Part shown: positions 3,849-33,866 of the stretch, piece after piece
How the letters are laid out: every line of letters begins with the position of its first letter
How positions within the stretch are numbered: the first letter of the stretch is position 1
Source: Bacteroidota bacterium
Lineage (GTDB): Bacteria > Bacteroidota > Ignavibacteria > Kapaibacteriales > UBA2268
Length of the DNA stretch: 33,866 bases
Assembly (NCBI GenBank): GCA_024278075.1
Contig: JAJRTW010000227.1
Location: 1 to 33,866 of the forward strand
Reading direction: 5' to 3'
Notes under the pieces: generated by a model
Told to the model about the DNA's origin: nothing
What the model saw: the letters and a program-made list of their open reading frames with translations, nothing else
Databases searched by the model: none
Made by a program: the position numbers and the translations under genes

Positions 3849-4280
3849 AATTATTCTATCGTTATAGTATTATAGTATTAAATTATTAAATTATTAAATT
3901 ATTAAATTATAAATTAAGATGTTTGCGAATCTAATATCTGATTAATTGCAAAATTATGAAGATATAATTAGAATATGATACTTAAAATTATTTAATATTT
4001 CATATTTTTAGTATTGGCCGGAAGCTGATAATTGAATATAATCTTTTTTATTAATTCCGAAACAGTGGTATATTATGGCTTAGTGTTCAAAAGCATGGCT
4101 TAGCCCGCATATTGCGGGACTTTTACTCAAGAGCTTCGTACCTCTAAGGAAGTATGCGAGTTAGGCTGATTCCACGGTGATTATGTTTGGCTTATTATAT
4201 TGAGTTATCTTAAATATCTATTATCCATTGCCTGTCAGGTGTTTTGAAGATTTTATGAATAATGCGGCTTAACACTAATT
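3849..4280. other. AT-rich intergenic region between divergent genes
   Basis: No gene is visible. It separates aspS (minus) from the small membrane protein and ppx (plus), so it should hold promoters in both directions, but no unambiguous promoter can be picked in such AT-rich DNA. It contains an 8-bp tandem repeat at about 3878-3916 and a small perfect hairpin, CCCGCA-TAT-TGCGGG, at 4104-4118 followed by ACTTTT, which could be a weak terminator-like or repeat palindrome. No tRNA fold found. Confidence 0.5.
3878..3916. repeat. 8-bp AT-rich tandem repeat upstream of aspS
   Basis: About four and a half copies of the unit TAAATTAT follow one another about 30-65 bp upstream of the aspS start codon. 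The tract could change length by slippage and would lie in or near the aspS promoter or leader. Confidence 0.75.
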
Positions 4281-4340
4281 ATGACGAAATTAATATTATG
4301 ACGAAATTAATATTATGACGAAATTAATATTATGACGAAA
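4281..4340 (+). repeat. 17-bp tandem repeat carrying four ATG start sites and three coupled mini-ORFs
   Basis: The unit ATGACGAAATTAATATT is repeated with ATGs at 4281, 4298, 4315 and 4332; the fourth is the start of the small membrane protein gene. Because 17 is not a multiple of three, each of the first three ATGs opens a six-codon frame, M-T-K-L-I-L, whose TGA overlaps the next ATG as ATGA. ATGA overlaps are a classic arrangement for termination-reinitiation. No Shine-Dalgarno precedes the first copy. Confidence 0.85.
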
Positions 4341-4559
4341 TTATTAATAATATTGCTCCTTATAATCGGCGGCACGCTGATAGTACTTAATTATGTCTCT
4401 AAGAAATTCAAGTCATTTCTTGAAAGTATAATCCCCACGGGGAAAATGAACAGCCGTAATAAATCCAAAAAAGAAGATGAAATTCTCTACCAAAAGGACG
4501 ATATCGTAATTCTTCGTGGCGAAGCCGACGACAAGCCCGATAACGAAACTAATAAGTAA
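4332..4559 (+). CDS. Small single-pass membrane protein
   Basis: This 75-residue protein begins with a hydrophobic helix (about residues 4-21, LLIILLLIIGGTLIVLNY). A basic stretch (SKKFKSF, later SRNKSKKED) follows, and then a short acidic tail with DDIVILRGEADDKPD. It resembles the small N-terminally anchored proteins of Bacteroidota annotated as DUF4834, but I hold that family name only loosely. The start codon is the last of four ATGs in a 17-bp tandem repeat, so its translation may depend on ribosomes reinitiating from the upstream mini-ORFs. The stop is 15 bp before the ppx start, so the two are very likely in one operon. Confidence 0.75.
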   Translation: MTKLLIILLLIIGGTLIVLNYVSKKFKSFLESIIPTGKMNSRNKSKKEDEILYQKDDIVILRGEADDKPDNETNK

Positions 4560-4574
4560 AATACTCTACAAAAC

Positions 4575-5507
4575 ATGGACAAGCCACCGGTAATAGCAGC
4601 AATTGATGTTGGCACTAATTCATTCCACATGGCTATCGCAACTGTTAATAGCAGAGGAATGATGAATGTATTGAACCGCGAGAAGGAAATTGTCCGCCTG
4701 GGTTCGGGCGGCGGCGATATGAAAATACTTACAGCCGAAGCAATCGACAGGGGTGTCACCACGCTCAGGCATTATTCCGAGATTGCAAAAACAGAGAATG
4801 CTGAAATTTATGCCGTTGCAACGAGCGCTGTCCGCGAGGCAGATAATAAAGATGAATTCTTGAATAAAGTAAAATCGGAAACCGGCATTGCAGTTCAAGT
4901 AGTATCGGGACTTGAAGAAGGCCGGCTGATATATCTTGGCGCATTGCACGCACTCCCTATATATAATAAACGCATATTATTGATTGACATTGGCGGCGGC
5001 AGCACGGAAACCGTCATCGGCTACAAAGGCAAAACAGAATATGTCAATAGTGAAAAAATAGGCAGCATAAGAATTACAAAGCGATTTTTTGACGGCGACC
5101 ATGAAACCGCCAAAGAATCGGTAGAGTCATGCAGGGAATTCATAAAGGGAGAATGGTCGCCAATATTGCACCGCATCTCCGAAACCGATTATGACACCGT
5201 CGTCGCAACTTCAGGAACTCTACAGACATTAGCGGTTATGACTCTGGCGGCCAAAGGCAGTGCAATACCTGATATAATCAACGGCCTTACGGTATCGGCA
5301 AAAAATGTCTTAAAGGTAATCGGCAAAATAATATCGGCCGGGACCAGGAAAAAAAGGGCAGCCCTGCCGGGAATGGACCAAAGCCGTGCCGACATTATCC
5401 TCGGCGGCGGTTTGATTATCGAACGGGCAATAAAAACTCTCAAAATTAAGAAGTTCACCATATCTTCATTTGCGCTACGTGAAGGAATAATTTTCGATAT
5501 AGCCTAA
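4575..5507 (+). CDS. ppx: Exopolyphosphatase / pppGpp phosphatase (Ppx/GppA), catalytic part
   Basis: This frame encodes the two-lobed ASKHA-fold catalytic portion of Ppx/GppA, which hydrolyses terminal phosphates from polyphosphate or pppGpp in the cytoplasm. Visible motifs are the phosphate-1 loop (AAIDVGTNSFHM, residues 8-19), VATSAVREADN, the catalytic-Glu region SGLEEGRLIYLG, the phosphate-2 loop LLIDIGGGSTE, and the C-terminal lobe ILGGGLIIERAI with LREGIIFD. The frame ends at TAA 5505-5507 at 310 residues. The same reading frame then continues without another stop through 6122, with the linker helix and HD domain normally fused to long Ppx proteins. The gene is therefore split by a single in-frame stop. 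The truncated form corresponds to the short Ppx variants and might still be active. Confidence 0.9.
   Translation: MDKPPVIAAIDVGTNSFHMAIATVNSRGMMNVLNREKEIVRLGSGGGDMKILTAEAIDRGVTTLRHYSEIAKTENAEIYAVATSAVREADNKDEFLNKVKSETGIAVQVVSGLEEGRLIYLGALHALPIYNKRILLIDIGGGSTETVIGYKGKTEYVNSEKIGSIRITKRFFDGDHETAKESVESCREFIKGEWSPILHRISETDYDTVVATSGTLQTLAVMTLAAKGSAIPDIINGLTVSAKNVLKVIGKIISAGTRKKRAALPGMDQSRADIILGGGLIIERAIKTLKIKKFTISSFALREGIIFDIA
5505..5507 (+). other. In-frame TAA interrupting ppx
   Basis: The TAA follows GCC in the frame of the Ppx catalytic domain. The 29 codons after it encode a helix, RYETIYNLCRRYKVEMKHAEY, that matches the expected start of the Ppx C-terminal region and runs directly into the HD domain. 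One base change would restore an uninterrupted frame of about 515 codons. Confidence 0.85.
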
Positions 5508-5594
5508 AAGCAGAAGAACATAAGTGAATCCCTGCACCTTAGCCACCTGAGATACGAGACTATTTATAATCTGTGCCGGCGCTATAAAGTTGAA

Positions 5595-6122
5595 ATGAAA
5601 CATGCTGAATATGTCAAGAGTATTGCACTTTCGATATTTGACGGACTTGGGCAGCTTCATGCTATGGGTGTTAATGAAAGAGAACTTCTCGAATCGGCAT
5701 CGTTGCTGCATGATGTTGGCTATCTGATCTCCCACGACCTGCACCATAAGCACAGCTATTATATAATCATGCACTCTATGATGCCCGGCTTCACAAACAA
5801 CGAGGCCGAATTAATTGCCAATATCGCACGGTACCACCGGAAAAGCCACCCAAAGAGAAAGCATGATAATTTTGCTCATCTCAGCGACCGGAAGAAAAAT
5901 ATTATACGCACTCTTGCGGGAATTTTGAGAATAGCCGAAGGCATGGACAGAAGGCAGCTTCAGGTAATAGAAAATATTCGAATCGAAATATTGTCAAACA
6001 GCGTCAATGTTGTGATTGAACCTGTTGCGGGCTCGAATCCCGACATTGAGCTGTGGGGAGCCGCAAGAAGAAAATTTCTGCTGGAAGAAATAATAAAAAG
6101 AAAACTTTATTTTAAAATGTGA
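5595..6122 (+). CDS. HD-domain C-terminal part of split exopolyphosphatase
   Basis: The 175-residue frame contains the HD-type helical domain of Ppx/GppA: LLHDVGYLISHDLHHKHSYYII with the His-Asp pair, then IANIARYHRKSHP, and the LAGILRIAEGMDRR helix seen in Ppx C-terminal regions. It is in the same reading frame as the catalytic part and separated from it only by the TAA at 5505-5507 and 28 further intervening codons. The first ATG at 5595 has no Shine-Dalgarno and falls inside the linker helix, so independent translation would give a protein lacking part of that helix. In the family this domain contributes to polyphosphate binding and dimerisation. It is either a broken remnant, a separately made subunit, or the product of stop-codon readthrough. 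Confidence 0.75.
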   Translation: MKHAEYVKSIALSIFDGLGQLHAMGVNERELLESASLLHDVGYLISHDLHHKHSYYIIMHSMMPGFTNNEAELIANIARYHRKSHPKRKHDNFAHLSDRKKNIIRTLAGILRIAEGMDRRQLQVIENIRIEILSNSVNVVIEPVAGSNPDIELWGAARRKFLLEEIIKRKLYFKM

Positions 6123-6333: not shown

Positions 6334-9300
6334 ATGATGAGATTAAAGACTACCTACCTTATTTCGATCTTGTTCGCAATTATCCTTTTGCTGCCCACAC
6401 AAACTAAAGCAGAAGGAATGAGCGATGAAGAGATTAAAGCGAAGTTGCCGCAGCTTCTCGGCCAAAGTAATGTCGGCAGGGAATTCTGGGTTACTATCCC
6501 TCCTTGCTATGAGGATGAATCCGGCGGCGCAGACAATTTCATTAAAATTTTCGTTACATCCCCGGTGAAAACTCTTGTAACATGCGAAGTGCCGGGTAGC
6601 GGATATTACAGAGCGCAGAATACTGTTCCGAATGATGTAATTGGTTTCGACATTGCACCCGCCTGGGGGCAGCCGTTCCTGTTCAGCGGACGAAGAGACA
6701 ATCCCAGGCCTGAGCAAATATACAGAAAGCGTGGAATTCATATTTATGCAAAGGACCCAATTGTAGTATATGTTGTCGTTAGATACAGGTATACAAGTGA
6801 TGGGTTCCTGGCTATACCTGTTTCCGGCCTTGGCAAGGAATATATAGTTGCTTCAATGGCGGATATGGTTTCTATGTATCCATGGGCCAAGACTTTCCCA
6901 AGTATAACCGGTATCGTTGGCGCCTATGATAATACTAAAGTCAGGTTTACAACCGGTGGAAATATCTTTACCGAAACTGCCGGCGGCCTTTGGACAGGCG
7001 AATCGAAAACATGGAGGCTTGACGAAGGCGATGTCCTGATGTTTATGTCTAATGGGTTTGAGCAGGACTTGACGGGAAGTAAAATTGTTGCAACCAAACC
7101 GGTAGCCGTAGTTTCCGGCAACCACTGCACCAATATCCCATCAATGAACCGGTGGTGCGACTATACAGTCGAAATGGACTTGCCGATGATGACTTGGGGT
7201 AGGCATATTCCGGTTGGCAAAGTTCCGAACCGAAGTTATAGCGGCATTGTCCGTATATTTTCAAAAGAAAGAAATAATAAAATATACAGAGATGGCAGGC
7301 ATATATTAAATATACCAAAAGTCGGCGGTATAGTCGGCGAGGGATGGCAGGAGATGCGGATTTATCCCGGGCAAGGGTCCAGATCGGCCATGTTCTCTGC
7401 TGAAAAACCGTTTAGTGTTACGTTCTACAATCCGGGTGTTGAAGAAGATAATCCCCGCCCAAACAGCGATCCGTTCGTTATGGCCATGACACCGGTCGAG
7501 CAGTTCCAGAAGCAGATTACATTCTGTACGCCTGCTATTGCCGGCGGGCTTAACTTCCCGGAAAATTATCTGAATCTGGTTTATCAGATTGATGAAAACG
7601 GATTCGTTCCGGAAGATATGATGTTTGCCGAGGTAAGGCAGGGCCAATTCAATTGGACACCCATACGGTCGAAATTCCCCGGACTTGACGATCCTTTTGC
7701 TGGCAAAGTCGATGGCAAAGAATATGCTTTGAAGACTATTCTGCTGCCTCGCGACGGCGTGTATATGATCAAAGCCGACAGGCCATTTGCTTGCTATTCA
7801 TTCGGATATTCATCTTATGATTCTTACGGATACCCAACAAGTGCTGCCCTGGCCGACCTTTCTAAGCCCGATACAGTTGCACCGGATCCTTTGTGGGAAC
7901 AGGAATGCGATGGTACTATCAAAGGTGCTGTTGTAACAGACAGGCCCGATGATACTCAAATCCGTTCGAACCTTGCCGATATTATCTATCAAAAAGCCCT
8001 TAGCTTTAATTATGATTTTGAATTCGAGGATATTATCCCGGGCGAAACCATTTCCACTACATGGAAATTAACTGTAAAAGACAAAACAGACGACGCAAGG
8101 GCTGTCATCACTTTTATGGACAGGGCCGGCAACGACTCAACTATAATTATAAATTATTTTGCCAACAAAGTGGCTATATTTGAAAGCTATGACTATGGTA
8201 ATCTTGAAACCGATAAGGTTTATACTCATGAATTTAGAATTGTGAATCTATCCGAAAAAAGCAGTGTTACCATTCCAGCTCCTATTGACGATTTCCTGAA
8301 ACTAAAGGACGGCAACAAGAACTTTACTATTAAGCATAGTCTTCCTTCGCCGCTCACTCTGCAGCCACTGGAAGAAATGTTCTTCACTATTGATTTCAGT
8401 TCTGCCACATCCGGCTCGTTTTTGGATTCAGTTGGTATCGGCGATGATTGCGTGTATGCCTACAGGTTCGAAATAAAAGCAAACGTAGGGATGCCTTTAA
8501 TTGATGTTGCCGATTTTACGTTTGATAAATTGAAAGTCGGAGAAACAGCACCCCCAACTGAAATCCAAATTAGAAATGACGGTTCATCAGAACTGATAAT
8601 AACAGGCTATGAAATGATACCTCCAATGACTGTTTATAGTCATGACATCGATGATTTCATGTCACCTGATATTACCATACCAGCCGGCGAGTCGATGCAA
8701 TTCCAAGTTAGTTTCACCCCGGATGCCGTGAGCGAATTCCCGACAGCTATATATTTCACCAGCAACGCTACCGGAACAGACAGCATCTGCGTGCTTAACG
8801 GCGCAGGTATTTCGCCTGGCTTATCGGCTTCGAATATATTATGGCCTCCGGTTCGTATTCACCGCACTACTCCTGATTTCCCGCGCGAGCCGTACCCAGG
8901 CCCCACTTCCGTGGAAATCAGAAACGACAGCACGATGGCAACGACTATTACTAACTATAGAATTCTTTCAGGCGACGAGGATTTATATGCATTTAATTTT
9001 GATATGAAGGACTTCGAACGAACTGTGGAACCGTATGGTGGTAATTTTCAAGTGCAATTTACATTCCAGCCAACACGTATCGGGCCTCATTTTGTTGAGA
9101 TACAATTATTAGATAATCAAGGAATAAACCCTACTTTTACTTTGGAAGGATCGGGTAAATTAGGAAGAATCACCATTACCCCTTCACTCGTCGATTTCGG
9201 TTCTATGGTTGTAGGTAATGTTAGTGACGAAAAAACACAAACGATGACTATTACTAATGTTGACTACGGGCCTTACTCCGATAGAGTAACAATTTGGGAT

Positions 9301-28815: not shown

Positions 28816-29240
28816 TAGCTGAGAGCTTACATTCGTAATTGTAAAGGTCATCCCCCTTCTAAGGGGGAAATCCAATTCGCTGATACCTGATACCTGATAG
28901 CTGACAGCTTAATTCGTAATTCGTAATTGTAATTGTAAAGGTCATCCCCCTTAATCCCCCTTCTAAGGGGGAAATCCAATTCGCTGATACCTGATAGCTG
29001 ACAGCTTAATTTGTAATTCGTAATTGTAATTGTAATTGTAATTGTAAAGGTCATCCCCCTTAATCCCCCTTCTAAGGGGGAAATCCAATTCGCTGATACC
29101 TGATAGCTGACACCTGACAGCGTAATTCATAATTCGTAATTGTAAAGGTTATCCCCCTTAATCCCCCTTCTAAGGGGGAAATCCAATTCGCTGACACCTG
29201 ATAGCTGACAGCTTAATTCGTAATTCGTAATTCGTAATTG
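28816..29240. repeat. Tandem array of ~100-bp units with nested short repeats
   Basis: Four copies of a unit with CCCCCTT...AAGGGGGAAATCCAATT then CGCTGATACCTGATAGCTGACAG and then variable runs of TAATTCG/TAATTG. The AAGGGGG anchors begin at 28861, 28965, 29074 and 29172, so spacing is 104, 109 and 98 bp; a partial unit precedes the first. Units differ mainly in the number of TAATTG-type and CTGATACCTGATAGCTGACA-type subrepeats. Each can fold into a C5/G5 hairpin. The array fills the gap between the iron-sulfur enzyme gene and the acyl-CoA synthetase gene. It is not a CRISPR: the units are long, and there are no unique spacers. Confidence 0.9.
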
Positions 29241-33719: not shown

Positions 33720-33785
33720 AGAGCAGTTCCTAATTTATACTCGAAAACAACGTTATGTTATCCGATATGTTGCCAACGACAAATA

Positions 33786-33866
33786 CTATTAAAACCGTAG
33801 GGGCAGGTTCTAAACCTGCCCTAATAGCTATTAAAACCGTAGGGGCAGGTTCTAAACCTGCCCTAA
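33786..33866. repeat. 42-bp tandem palindromic repeat reaching the window end
   Basis: The unit begins CTATTAAAACCGTAGGG and carries the hairpin GGGCAGGTT-CTA-AACCTGCCC. Copies start at 33786 and 33828, and the second runs to the last base of the window, so the array may continue beyond it. The hairpin is the same type as 28711-28731. Confidence 0.85.

Follow-up and report, generated by a model that had tools for sequence, protein, structure and literature searches.

A small membrane-protein gene upstream of ppx has its start codon at the end of an exact 17-bp tandem array, in which the same codon is found three further times. This arrangement was identified in a 33,866-nucleotide stretch of DNA, referred to here as the window, and was compared with a large sample of the host genome and with the genomes of relatives. 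The array is probably a young, nearly neutral minisatellite, tolerated as its overlapping stop and start codons keep the gene translatable. Although the array itself is far beyond chance, the chain of mini-ORFs within it is no separate coincidence, because it results from a period of 2 modulo 3 together with a gene start that reads ATGA. The genome is unusually rich in repeats and contains well over a hundred arrays of this sort, and their overall excess is a more unusual fact than the mini-ORF chain. The chain can be accounted for without any dedicated regulatory role.

The array at the start of the membrane-protein gene

The features considered here are listed in Table 1. TRF reported the array with 100% matches and a score of 132. 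Direct reading places ATG codons within it at 4281, 4298, 4315 and 4332. Each of the first three opens the frame ATG ACG AAA TTA ATA TTA TGA (M-T-K-L-I-L-stop), and in each case the TGA sits within the next ATGA, at 4298, 4315 and 4332, giving an overlap of -4. In these respects the sequence and the TRF result agree with the original prediction, which had described the four ATGs, the three identical peptides and the stop/start overlaps at the correct coordinates. Its argument that further copies would create more coupled mini-ORFs and leave the gene unbroken is also supported.

Table 1. Features of the window and loci with in-frame stops elsewhere in the genome
Feature	Location	Strand	Basis
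MITE-like interspersed element, ends CCCGCAT/ATGCGG[C], about 44 genome copies	4104..4268	+	genome searches
17-bp tandem array, unit ATTATGACGAAATTAAT, 3.9 exact copies	4278..4343	+	TRF and sequence
Mini-ORF 1, MTKLIL-stop, TGA overlapping next ATG	4281..4301	+	direct reading
Mini-ORF 2, MTKLIL-stop	4298..4318	+	direct reading
Mini-ORF 3, MTKLIL-stop, TGA overlapping ATG of membrane-protein gene	4315..4335	+	direct reading
75-aa single-span membrane protein gene, family conserved upstream of ppx	4332..4559	+	ORF, Pfam, orthologues
ppx/gppA N-terminal part, ended by in-frame TAA 5505-5507	4575..5507	+	
ppx same-frame continuation, domain III/HD, first ATG 5595	5508..6122	+	
rpoB with in-frame TAA, codon 948	L172 6884-10783		
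mutS with in-frame TAG, codon 235	L124 7739-10519		
rpoN with single in-frame stop	L072 10533-12269		
hemH with single in-frame stop	L097 6700-7662		
Further locus with single in-frame stop	L069 3452-6001		
Further locus with single in-frame stop	L094 5215-6369		
Further locus with single in-frame stop	L160 3982-6261		

The ORF that begins at 4332 encodes a protein of 75 amino acids, starting MTKLLIILLLIIGG..., in which a single hydrophobic span at the N terminus is followed by a charged tail. A Pfam search with this protein matched no family (best E = 0.65). Orthologues were sought in whole genomes from the same family and order and in a Candidatus Kapaibacterium chromosome (L227), and 16 were located upstream of ppx. 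All 16 start at the residue equivalent to the ATG at 4332, which bears out the earlier assignment of the fourth ATG as the real start of the gene, and their C-terminal tails have in common a motif resembling YxKDDxxVxKGE. None of them carries a tandem repeat in the region from 100 bp upstream to 40 bp downstream of the start. The start at 4332 is thus ancestral and the array private to this lineage. The original prediction had itself named close relatives with no repeat and the same expression as a point against its reading, and at the family level the lack of a repeat is what the 16 orthologues present. The gene ends 15 bp ahead of the ppx ATG, as had been described. It should be noted that single-span membrane proteins of about 70 amino acids located just 5' to ppx make up an unnamed protein group that is conserved across the taxonomic family (orthologues L037-L062 and L227). 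By ppx identity, the host is probably a member of the Kapaibacteria group.

A MITE-like element stops 9 bp short of the array and has thereby displaced the native leader of the gene; promoter-like matches for the gene are weak. The element is flanked by TTAG (4100-4103) and TTAA (4269-4272). Copies of the element, in the window and elsewhere (L002-L034), are 165-173 bp long; their ends are inverted repeats (CCCGCAT/ATGCGGG), and they are flanked by 4-bp repeats of the TTAN type. At several copies the flanking direct repeats are TTAG/TTAG, TTAT/TTAT or TTCA/TTCA, and TTAA is also found. The element thus has the terminal inverted repeats, the flanking direct repeats and the high copy number of a MITE. 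Among the other family genomes (54 searched) it was absent, save for one 24-bp weak match. It was also considered as a known RNA, and this was rejected, as the window has no Rfam match and the fold of the element is no better than that of shuffled sequences. Tandem partial copies of the element, at 108-bp spacing, are found in L109 (C123 about 8491-8979).

Tandem arrays and start duplications across the genome

The frequency of such arrays was determined in a sample of 1.55 Mb (1.553 Mb; L065-L184), or about 42% of the 3.74-Mb genome, in which gene starts were called by a simple in-house codon-usage caller. In all, 252 exact tandem arrays with periods between 5 and 60 were counted in the sample. 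Those with at least three copies and a period of at least 8 number 76 in 1.553 Mb, or 4.9 per 100 kb. No such array was found in 259 kb from relatives (110 kb from the family and order and 149 kb from near named relatives), where about 12.7 would be expected at the density of the host genome, although the comparison is rough because the relatives' sequence consists of ppx neighbourhoods only. In coding regions, all 50 of 50 arrays have a period divisible by 3. The non-coding arrays show no preference (44/38/47 by period modulo 3), and they are not enriched at gene starts, with 20 observed nearby against 27.7 +/- 5.0 expected from random non-coding placement. Thus, arrays form at any position and those that disrupt a frame are lost to selection, with nothing to indicate a preference for starts; targeting of start codons by the arrays was rejected on this basis. 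Elsewhere in the window, at 28850-29240 and 33782-33866, there are tandem repeats of greater length (109/207 bp and 42 bp), with the motifs CCCCCTT... and AGGGGCAGGTT....

Chains of the same kind precede other genes, which from their translations alone we take to be secA, tsaD and an epimerase-like gene. The secA leader (L161 11174-11317) contains a 17-bp array of 7.1 copies with six ATGA-coupled mini-ORFs, each MIFLPL-stop; the last frame of this array, MIFLPINKENKKLC followed by a stop, runs into the start of secA, with which it overlaps at ATGTTAA. At a junction of two sugar genes, an 18/17-bp array duplicates the start of the second, epimerase-like gene and ends in MKKAGK-stop with an ATGA overlap. 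At tsaD, a 14-bp duplication gives MKIL-stop with a TAATG overlap. Two other genes have in-frame N-terminal repeats (MRFPNRII and MNIEYL). Two further period-17 arrays contain ATGA: one (C30/C241) is intergenic, behind a biotin-carrier gene, and leads into no gene, and another (C111) is at a contig end. Over-representation of ATGA in period-17 arrays was rejected, since four such arrays were found against about four expected and the reversed control gave one; the expected figure is a rough hand estimate from about 22 period-17 arrays in the genome and the 17% of random 17-mers that contain ATGA on either strand. A fourfold period-17 ATGA pattern was found in 1 of 54 family genomes, the host genome only, and in 7 of 395 genomes of a phylum sample.

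Duplications of period 8-24 were then simulated across 784 real starts of the host genome. Among genes with an ATG start, 53% begin ATGA. When an ATG followed by A is duplicated at a period of 2 modulo 3, the frame of the extra ATG runs into a TGA that begins at the second base of the next ATG. Of the simulated duplications with periods of this class, 41% gave an ATGA chain and a further 11% a TAATG/TGATG chain; of those with periods divisible by 3, 84% gave an in-frame extension. The observed ATGA chain is therefore an ordinary outcome of start duplication. An out-of-frame overlap resulted in 38% of simulated cases and in none of the six start-spanning duplications found in the sample, which comprise two in-frame extensions, two ATGA chains, one TAATG chain and one earlier stop. 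This fits a filter against such overlaps, but is no proof of one, as the number is too small (0.62^6 is about 0.06).

In-frame stops in ppx and other genes

The ppx gene behind the array is split by a single TAA at codon 311, whereas in relatives it is one frame of about 520 amino acids in which the aligned residue is mostly Gln and sometimes Glu. Single in-frame stops were found in several other genes of this genome (Table 1), including a phosphorylase and a Cys/Met PLP enzyme. They are mostly TAA, and the genes concerned are essential or core ones, interrupted within conserved domains. In relatives, Glu is invariant at the position of the rpoB stop and nearly invariant at that of mutS; elsewhere the aligned residue is Asn (rpoN), Leu (phosphorylase) or Lys/Glu/Arg (Cys/Met PLP enzyme). 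A reassigned stop codon is disfavoured, since the aligned residues vary among genes and ARAGORN detected no suppressor tRNA in the genome sample. A pattern search for a tRNA-Glu with a stop anticodon matched only one with CTC, a weak negative in that the expected tRNA-Glu(TTC) escaped the pattern as well. The in-frame stops would then be nonsense changes, natural splits or consensus errors, with recoding less likely; the rpoB stop is the most puzzling case. A damaged mutS might be accompanied by a raised mutation rate. As for mutS as a source of the 17-bp duplications, the loops handled by mismatch repair are mainly only a few bases long.

Origin of the array and its possible effects

We propose that the start-codon stretch of the small membrane-protein gene was duplicated and then re-duplicated to give the array now observed, as one of the many short exact tandem duplications that this lineage produces and retains. 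A ribosome starting at any copy would terminate with the next start under it and could restart there, and every copy would repeat the local initiation context. Both routes would lead to 4332, so that the true start would stay accessible; the duplication would thus be close to neutral and would survive. The same tolerance would extend to in-frame duplications at the starts of other genes. The arrangement resembles translational coupling, or termination-reinitiation at ATGA, in that a stop overlaps the next start, as in many operons. However, the upstream frames here have only six codons and are near-copies of the start region of the gene, and the coupling is putative.

The original prediction had interpreted the repeat as a possible means of tuning expression. 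In this form, copy number would vary in the population by slippage, and the mini-ORFs would raise or lower initiation at 4332 and, via coupling, expression of ppx. The exact units of a 66-bp array are of a slippage-prone sequence type, the coupled geometry is real, and similar chains precede secA and tsaD. On the other hand, starts are not enriched for arrays, no relative carries this one, and the geometry arises by default, so that we regard such a switch as unlikely. The short exact arrays in a repeat-rich genome are like VNTRs, minisatellites and contingency loci, and an exact tandem array well beyond chance is what a minisatellite or VNTR presents; unlike in contingency loci, a change of copy number here would add mini-ORFs and not shift the frame of the gene. 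A modest copy-number-dependent effect on the membrane-protein gene and ppx is possible. The coupled chains at secA, tsaD and the epimerase-like gene leave room for a functional reading. In its broadest form, start-codon minisatellites at these three genes and at the membrane-protein/ppx locus would be a recurrent regulatory device, with copy number setting expression and with the chains arising again and again through unusually frequent short tandem duplication; we consider this unlikely.

The units of MIRUs (mycobacterial interspersed repetitive units) are longer than 17 bp, and MIRUs form one dispersed, apparently mobile family. According to a review of translational coupling (PMC12548453), MIRUs insert at start codons in such a way that an ORF inside the unit is coupled at -4 nt to the gene behind, which probably keeps the disturbance of that gene small. 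The logic is shared with the present array, and the likeness is one of geometry: a start-codon repeat with a short ORF and an ATGA-type overlap of -4 nt. That the 17-bp unit, or the MITE-like element just upstream, which has many copies in the genome, is a mobile repeat inserting at start codons with a coupled ORF is very improbable. The array is a locus-unique copy of the start of its own gene (MTKL), as expected of local duplication, and the units of the other chains are unrelated to it (MIFLPL, MKKAGK, MRISSR, MKSHEA). A search with the whole region matched MITE copies elsewhere in the genome and nothing for the array, so that no dispersed homologous family was seen; with unit sequences that differ among loci, a MIRU-like mobile unit was rejected.

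An artefact or collapse of the assembly, with a wrong copy number in the consensus, would be a comparably slim prospect. Assembly does stop at long arrays: of 210 contig ends, 16 fall within an array, these arrays being 79-155 bp long, and long arrays thus fragment the assembly. But these longer arrays only end contigs and create no repeats, and the 66-bp array, which should fit within one short read if short reads were used, was assembled through. Transcription might also start inside or after the array, leaving some mini-ORFs outside the mRNA, and weak sigma-70-like matches (9 of 12) are present at 4269-4297 and 4324-4351; but the region is AT-rich, with 10 matches against 4.9 +/- 2.0 in shuffles, and the sigma-70 consensus may not be that of the host, which makes this reading a faint one.

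Of the earlier interpretation, then, the geometry stands, and the special status given to it is not supported, given the abundance of arrays, the default outcome of start duplication, the recurrences in the genome and the MIRU precedent. The original prediction knew of no described case with this exact geometry; the geometry is found at least twice more in this genome, MIRUs are described ORF-bearing repeats coupled at -4 nt to the gene behind them, and in the limited literature covered we found nothing closer than MIRUs as a precedent for tandem duplication of a start codon.

Our preferred account, a nearly neutral start-codon minisatellite, carries a simple rule: an ATGA start duplicated at a period of 2 modulo 3 yields coupled mini-ORFs, and the gene need not break. 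A genome with several natural start duplications offers a test set for restart on identical tandem starts and for tolerance of leader changes. The excess of arrays in this genome itself merits explanation.
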